Of a stretch of 64,000 bases of DNA, positions 51,660 to 52,912 are shown in pieces. Position 1 is the first letter of the stretch, and each line of letters begins with the position of its first letter. This DNA is from Longimicrobium sp. (lineage in GTDB: Bacteria > Gemmatimonadota > Gemmatimonadetes > Longimicrobiales > Longimicrobiaceae): contig NZ_DATIND010000022.1 of assembly GCF_035474595.1 (NCBI RefSeq), forward strand, positions 1 to 64,000, written 5' to 3'. Below the pieces are notes generated by a model. That model was given only the letters and a program-made list of their open reading frames with translations, did no database searches and was not told where the DNA came from. A program made the position numbers and the translations under genes.

Positions 51660-51720
51660 GCGGCTTGCGCTGAAAGTGAGTGGAAGGTACAATGTGCCTC
51701 CCTCACTTTCGAGCCGAGCC

Positions 51721-52146
51721 ATGTACTCCTTCGTCGCGGCAACGCGCCCACGGTCCGTGCAGGCGAAAAAGACCCTGCACTACAAGAACGAGATCGTCCG
51801 TGCCTTCCAGCGGTACGTCCCCACCCCCAGGCAGCTGGACGGGCCGCTGTACGGCGTGGTGTACTATTTCCACAACGTTCCCACCGACACGGACGCCGAC
51901 AACATCAGCAAGCCGGTATGGGACTCGCTGGAGGGGATGGCGTTCGCGAACGACCGCCACGTGAAGCTGCGGGTCGCGGGGATCCACGACCTGTCGCAGG
52001 CGGGACTCGAGCGGCTCGACCTGAGCGGGGTGCCGGAAGACCTCGCGCGTGACCTGGACGAGCTCGTCGGCTCGGAGGATCATATCCTCTACGTCGAGGT
52101 AGGAAGGCTTCACGAGTCGATGTACCGCTTCAGCTGCGAGGTTTAG
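51721..52146 (+). CDS. RusA-like Holliday junction resolvase
   Basis: A 141-residue protein. The catalytic RusA pattern is intact: D58-A-D60-N-I-S-K64, then D68 in WDSLEGMAF and D78 in NDRHVK. RusA enzymes are metal-dependent dimers that cut four-way DNA junctions and are mostly phage-derived. Here it stands alone in the chromosome, followed after seven bases by a restriction-endonuclease-fold-like gene. No phage structural gene is near. ATG 51721 begins directly before the first strand; upstream codons carry no conserved sequence. Confidence 0.8.
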   Translation: MYSFVAATRPRSVQAKKTLHYKNEIVRAFQRYVPTPRQLDGPLYGVVYYFHNVPTDTDADNISKPVWDSLEGMAFANDRHVKLRVAGIHDLSQAGLERLDLSGVPEDLARDLDELVGSEDHILYVEVGRLHESMYRFSCEV

Positions 52147-52153
52147 CCAGCCC

Positions 52154-52762
52154 ATGCAGATCCGTAGCGACATCATGAGGCGGCACCTGGAACAGGCCGC
52201 GATCGAGCAACTCACCGCCGAGTACCTGGACAAGGGGTACGCGGTCGTTCCCGCGCCCGAGAACGGCGGCGGCGACGCCGACCTGGTGATGCGGCGCGGC
52301 GATGAGAGCATCTACTTCGAGCTCAGCTCGCAGCCGCCGTCGCCGGAACGGCGCGCGCGGCTTTCGCGGGTGCACCGGCACGTGCGGTCGCGGAAGAATG
52401 CCCGGCTGCAACTGGTGATCGTGCGCAGTCCGGAGCCACCCGAGATCGGTGTCGAGGAGTTCGAGAGCCGGCTCCTGCGCCTGTGCGCCGAGCGTGCCGA
52501 CGTTCTGGGTTTCGCGGCCACCGGCTACTCCGCGCACCCGAAGCGCCTGACGGACGTTCGCTTCGACGCAATCAAGGTCAAACGCGACGGAATCGGCGTC
52601 GAGGGCATGGCGGCTGGACAGTTCGAGCTGGTGTGCGAAGGTTCGTGCGCGTTCACGGACTGGTTCACCCTGCATTTCCACCTCACGCTCGATCACGATC
52701 TGGAGATCGCGTCCGTCGAATCGCTGTCGGCCGACGTGTCGGGGTATGTGGACGCCGGATAG
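52154..52762 (+). CDS. PD-(D/E)XK nuclease-like protein, partner of the RusA-like gene
   Basis: A 202-residue protein. The N-terminal half reads EQAAIEQLTAEYLDKGYAVV, then GGGDADLVMRRGDESIYFELSS. An Asp (GGDADLV) and a Glu about 11-13 residues later (YFELSS) match the D-x(n)-E-x-K/S arrangement of restriction-endonuclease-like folds, with Ser in place of Lys. A second helical/strand unit (RLQLVIVRS) completes a core. The last 80 residues form a separate strand-rich domain. It starts seven bases after the RusA-like stop, and a terminator follows, so the two form a closed module. The function is not known. Confidence 0.55.
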   Translation: MQIRSDIMRRHLEQAAIEQLTAEYLDKGYAVVPAPENGGGDADLVMRRGDESIYFELSSQPPSPERRARLSRVHRHVRSRKNARLQLVIVRSPEPPEIGVEEFESRLLRLCAERADVLGFAATGYSAHPKRLTDVRFDAIKVKRDGIGVEGMAAGQFELVCEGSCAFTDWFTLHFHLTLDHDLEIASVESLSADVSGYVDAG

Positions 52763-52789: not shown

Positions 52790-52823
52790 CGAAGGGGATC
52801 GGCGGGGGTGCCGGTCCCCTTCG
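52790..52823 (+). terminator. Terminator of the RusA/nuclease module
   Basis: CGAAGGGGA.CGGC pairs with GCCG.TCCCCTTCG around a 6-base loop, then CGCTTCC. It lies 27 bases past the stop. Confidence 0.65.
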
Positions 52824-52844: not shown

Positions 52845-52912
52845 ATCTCACGCGGAGACGCGGAGGTGCACGTCGAGCCACCTCCGCGTCTCCGCGTCTC
52901 CGCGTGAGCTAC
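52845..52912. repeat. Dispersed inverted repeat G, copy 5
   Basis: GGATCTCACGCGGAGACGCGG and the opposing CCTCCGCGTCTCCGCGTCTC then CGCGTGAG. This is the most symmetric copy; the arms pair over more than 25 bases. Confidence 0.75.

Follow-up and report, generated by a model that had tools for sequence, protein, structure and literature searches.

A RusA-family endonuclease gene and a gene for an archaeal-Holliday-resolvase-like (AHJR-like) protein directly downstream of it form a recurrent module in at least four bacterial phyla. We analyzed one copy in the window, a 64,000-nucleotide stretch of contig C22 from a 6.57-Mb draft Longimicrobium genome (G000). This breadth, the location outside phages and, for some copies, antiviral genes next door suggest that the pair is an undescribed conflict or defense module and not a stray phage gene. 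We lean, by a small measure, toward reading it as a compact, horizontally spread conflict module, most likely anti-phage or anti-plasmid, in which RusA would cut and the product of gene B would act as its partner. The features of the locus are collected in Table 1.

Table 1. Features of the RusA/AHJR-like pair and its flanks, in window coordinates.
Feature	Coordinates	Strand	Description
Putative promoter/operator of the pair	51662..51712	+	TTGCGC-N17-TACAAT; inverted repeat GTGAG...CTCAC around the -10 element
Gene A	51721..52146	+	RusA-family structure-specific endonuclease, 141 aa
Gene B	52154..52762	+	202 aa; two domains
Gene B, N-terminal domain	52154..52435	+	AHJR-like PD-(D/E)XK fold; about residues 1-94
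Gene B, C-terminal domain	52436..52762	+	beta-rich; appears related to PF18166 (pP_pnuc_2)
Terminator-like hairpin 3' of B	about 52791-52822	+	from folding; strong hairpin, poor T-run

Both open reading frames lie where the original prediction had placed them, downstream of metG and on the same strand as it; as predicted, 7 bases separate the stop codon of A (52144-52146) from the B start codon, an ATG at 52154. The flanks, ricT-metG and a CbiX-like ORF, were both assigned from the ORF list alone. A second Longimicrobium species (G379) has both genes, with identities of 75% for A and 68% for B, and dN/dS between the window and this species is 0.27 for A and 0.28 for B; we therefore regard A and B as real, selected genes. 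A GTG at 51676 is a possible longer start for gene A, and conservation with G379 is strong solely from the ATG at 51721. The promoter-like element between metG and A has the same position in the G379 alignment, and its putative assignment as promoter/operator relies on that conservation; a consensus promoter scanner made no call for it. The terminator that had been thought to close the pair stands in part: a hairpin does follow B, but its T-run is poor and it is absent from the list of a consensus terminator scanner, while the equivalent hairpin in G379 ends in a canonical TTTCTTTT tail. Directly after the pair, at 52849-52906, is a REP-like palindrome, CACGCGGAGACGCGGAG...CTCCGCGTCTCCGCGTG, one 17-base arm of which occurs 221 times in the genome (reversed control, 0); a palindrome resembling it also follows the pair in G379. 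Occurrence within the genus is patchy. Among the nine genomes with a readable site downstream of metG, two carry the PF18166-form pair there and the seven others do not, so the islet is indeed missing from relatives at this position.

Gene A is a RusA family member with a complete predicted catalytic set. It scores above the cut-off of the Pfam RusA model (PF05866; E = 1.1e-6, 29.7 bits, cut-off 22.8) and matches PHROG RusA (E = 2e-6). When the RusA proteins of the module were aligned as a profile to E. coli RusA (1q8r), the catalytic block matched: D58, D60, K64, and D78 of the window protein fall on the D-x-D-N-x-x-K...D-D core. All 58 relatives keep D58, D60, N61, K64, D68, and D78 unchanged, bearing out the earlier call of a RusA fold with all catalytic Asp and Lys residues. 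D70N RusA has been described as nuclease-dead (PMC4909299).

Scanning a profile of the window RusA over 84,980 species genomes returned 56 loci, 53 of them testable in that they had enough downstream DNA. An AHJR-like partner lies directly downstream of RusA in all 53, and the two genes overlap by exactly 4 nt in 21 loci and exactly 1 nt in 14 (35/53 for either value); a shortened case (L056) has a 77-nt gap. For the reverse test, PF18743 (AHJR-like) was searched in genomes chosen without reference to RusA. New matches above the cut-off numbered three in the alphaproteobacterial sample, one in the Bacteroidota sample, and seven in Gemmatimonadota, and RusA adjoins the PF18743 gene in 9 of these 11 independent matches. 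The remaining two are L129, which has an XRE-like HTH gene in front of AHJR-HEPN, and L134, a lone 104-aa ORF. RusA is also adjacent in each of three further plasmid copies found from B. This two-way pairing (53/53 starting from RusA, 9/11 starting from AHJR) sustains the predicted module and led us to reject chance neighborhood. Distances among the RusA proteins track those among the AHJR proteins (Mantel r = 0.82, 0/2000 permutations). When all ORFs from about 60 loci were clustered, no third gene recurred beyond close relatives; the widely recurring ORFs were RusA, the partner, and their antisense shadows only. Prevalence of PF18743 is low, at 7/390 genomes in Gemmatimonadota, 4/240 in the alphaproteobacterial sample, and 2/345 over the cut-off in the Bacteroidota sample (the seed counted as one in each of the latter two).

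Phages and cryptic prophages are the best-known sources of RusA, and PHROG RusA models match gene A, as would be expected of a remnant prophage RusA whose neighbor is unrelated and there by chance. We consider this origin highly improbable and rejected it: the recurrence of the pairing in four phyla already contradicts it, both genes are under purifying selection, the ORF list of the window has no phage genes near the pair, and no relatives of the window RusA were found in 2.9 million viral contigs. A single distant phage match to RusA was seen, at 30%, and phage and plasmid searches with B itself gave no match. The location outside any prophage, part of the original prediction, thus holds.

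The N-terminal domain of B has an archaeal-Holliday-resolvase-like (Hjc-type PD-(D/E)XK) fold. Residues 10-93 match PF18743 above its cut-off (E = 2.4e-6, 27.5 bits, cut-off 26.1), hhalign aligns the domain with the N-domains of AHJR-HEPN proteins (95%, E = 2.8e-8), and a profile of the module's N-domains matches ST1444 (E = 5e-7) and Sso Hjc (E = 1e-3). An AlphaFold2 model (pLDDT 85) has mostly archaeal Hjc proteins as Foldseek PDB neighbors; their individual E-values are weak, and we take the Hjc-type fold from the agreement among neighbors rather than from any single value. With BLASTP, B gave marginal results against two alphaproteobacterial partners, so profiles were needed to link them. 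The profile and model comparisons agree with the nuclease fold predicted for the second protein, whose 202 residues do contain the D...E-x-S arrangement in the N-terminal half (D43, E56, S58).

A working nuclease is less well supported than the fold. In window B the PD-(D/E)XK catalytic set is incomplete, with D43 and E56 kept and Ser58 in place of Lys, and the sister species G379 has D-H-R where the window has D-E-S (Glu to His, Lys to Arg). Across 59 partners the Asp is retained in 59, the Glu in 48, and the Lys in 28; the Asp is also lost in L130, L132, and L133 (Gemmatimonadota HEPN forms) and in L140. The HEPN R and H are retained in nearly all HEPN-type partners. The AHJR site is thus degenerate not only in the window and the sister species but in about half of all partners, while the RusA site is invariant. 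A second cutting activity in B is therefore unlikely, and we rejected an active second nuclease as the default reading. The dN/dS of about 0.28 nevertheless shows that B is under selection despite its degenerate site; its probable role is that of a subunit for DNA binding or targeting.

The C-terminal half of B is a distinct domain that the original prediction did not describe. A direct Pfam search with window B did not detect PF18166, the C-half being too diverged, and direct hhalign of this half against Lit-associated PF18166 proteins gave no match. In Chloroflexota and Bacteroidota, the C-halves of B relatives match PF18166, with E-values down to 4e-23. The relative L051 passes PF18166 (E = 7e-9) and aligns end to end with window B (E = 1e-24), and the window C-half matches a profile of the relatives' C-domains (E = 0.0024, exceeding all 2000 shuffles). 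Through these intermediates, the window domain appears related to PF18166. It has no HEPN R-x4-6-H motif and is beta-rich, and so it is not of the AHJR-HEPN type; Foldseek of whole B against the PDB gave weak matches for this half.

Partners therefore come in two forms, AHJR-HEPN (the majority, mainly in Alphaproteobacteria) and AHJR-PF18166, the latter in the window, G379, three Chloroflexota MAGs, and three Bacteroidota MAGs. One change separates the two partner types on the RusA tree, where branches are long and deep joins unsure. The window genome carries both, a PF18166 pair on C22 and a HEPN pair on C63, and G379 likewise has a HEPN-form pair (C160), as do G251, G273, and G395. In the second pair of the window genome (L002/L127, G000:C63:32.9-34.0 kb), which consists of RusA and AHJR-HEPN, the AHJR catalytic Asp is lost and the HEPN Arg is shifted.

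On the conflict-module reading, RusA would be the cutting subunit and would act on branched DNA such as junctions and replication or recombination intermediates. The Hjc-fold domain of B, its catalysis often lost, would probably bind branched DNA or position RusA. The exchangeable C-terminal domain may be an effector or adaptor, and in the HEPN form the R-x4-H domain would be a likely RNase effector. The data show the pairing itself, the gene order and overlap, the folds, the pattern of conservation, the absence from viral contigs, and the patchy occurrence; a complex of A with B, the targeting of RusA by B, and invading DNA as the target are what we infer. A fuller version of this scheme, to which we give somewhat less than an even chance, is a previously undescribed two-gene immune family in which a worn Hjc-fold protein would guide an intact RusA to branched invader DNA and a swappable HEPN RNase or PF18166-type effector would decide the outcome.

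Gene neighborhoods bear on this reading in both directions. Neither A nor B matches a system protein of PADLOC-DB 2.0.0 up to E = 1, and no known defense genes lie beside the window pair. The window-type copies with Septu or restriction genes adjoining are L052, with a Septu PtuA downstream, and L053, with a type I HsdR gene just upstream. At the latter locus (L053:3421-7066) the RusA ORF begins 15 nt past HsdR, with HsdS and a PDC-M11A-type gene farther upstream, so that it resembles a member of a restriction operon. CBASS-cyclase and GajA models match among alphaproteobacterial neighbors (by motif, both in L067), AbiEii/DUF6088 is beside the pair in L112, and many alphaproteobacterial copies sit among housekeeping genes; these defense-neighbor counts are raw, without a matched control. 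On two rhizobial plasmids (L108:3530-5187 and L109:3467-5013), a gene for a PF18165-PF18166 protein overlaps a Lit-family peptidase gene by 4 nt, and the L109 copy adjoins AbiEii/DUF6088 and Hachiman. This peptidase pair is possibly an uncatalogued abortive-infection pair. A conflict role for the RusA/AHJR module is favored by its low, patchy prevalence, its plasmid copies, the HEPN form, the restriction, Septu, CBASS, Gabija-type, and AbiE neighbors, and the occurrence of PF18166 in Lit-peptidase pairs within defense clusters.

The many ordinary neighborhoods count against a conflict role, as does a HEPN-form pair on the Ti plasmid pTi_CFBP2177 (L011) that lies beside imuA, a Y-family polymerase gene, and ligD. 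Both would suit an accessory role in host recombination or repair, with RusA and an Hjc-like cofactor resolving host junctions or stalled forks, and both domains do come from junction-resolving folds. We nevertheless think this role unlikely. The pair is found in a few percent of genomes or fewer, some copies are inside defense gene clusters, and the HEPN fusion fits plain repair poorly. A housekeeping repair function is further weakened because the host genome already has RuvC and because 55 upstream regions of relatives contain no proteobacterial LexA box. Gram-positive-type matches turned up in three of these loci only, and SOS regulation was rejected. The choice between defense and repair is one that we infer, with the evidence leaning to defense or conflict.

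The exception at L129 (G180 contig C377) has a toxin-antitoxin-like layout, AHJR-HEPN standing with an XRE-like regulator and without RusA. It counts against our preferred explanation and suggests toxin-antitoxin-like uses, in which B, in its HEPN or PF18166 form, would be toxic and held in check by RusA or by RusA-bound DNA. The small, overlapping genes are consistent with such a pair, and HEPN domains carrying R-x4-6-H make up a known class of toxins (PMC3710099). However, the RusA catalytic residues are invariant, where a mere antidote would need none, and the window form has no HEPN; for the module as a whole we give this arrangement a rather poor chance.

Annotation usually treats RusA as a phage resolvase and considers the gene by itself. 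The subfamily described here is non-phage, and across at least four phyla it is tied to a partner whose resolvase fold is unrelated to its own. If the conflict module is immune, branched DNA would be its signal or target, and to our knowledge few immune systems use branched DNA in either way. The proposal, if true, would also assign a function to PF18743, PF18166, and genes whose present annotation is "hypothetical protein" or "HepT-like." A match is present in Caulobacter vibrioides, which makes the idea testable in a laboratory organism.

RusA, AHJR-like REases, and the AHJR-HEPN fusion were already known, the fusion of an AHJR-like REase to HEPN-M having been named by Anantharaman et al. 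in 2013 (PMC3710099) in a text that makes no mention of RusA. In PADLOC and in the open-access literature searched, we found no account of RusA paired with AHJR, of the two forms of this pair, or of the repeated decay of the AHJR site. Gene A shares its fold family and the complete D-x-D-N-x-x-K...D catalytic set with E. coli RusA (PF05866), but the module RusA is tied to an AHJR-like partner and, in the collections searched, occurs on chromosomes or plasmids and not in phages. PF18743 takes in both AHJR-HEPN-M and the N-domain of B, and the HEPN-form partner is that same fusion, whereas the window partner lacks the catalytic Lys and carries a PF18166-like domain in place of HEPN. The pP_pnuc_1/pP_pnuc_2 proteins paired with a Lit-family peptidase on rhizobial plasmids have the overlapping two-gene layout in common with the module, and a C-terminal domain of the PF18166 type, to which the window domain appears related; they differ in their N-domain (PF18165 rather than AHJR) and in their partner (a peptidase rather than RusA). 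Finally, the archaeal Hjc/Hje resolvases are fold and sequence-profile neighbors of the B N-domain, from which window B and about half of the partners depart in their degenerate active site.
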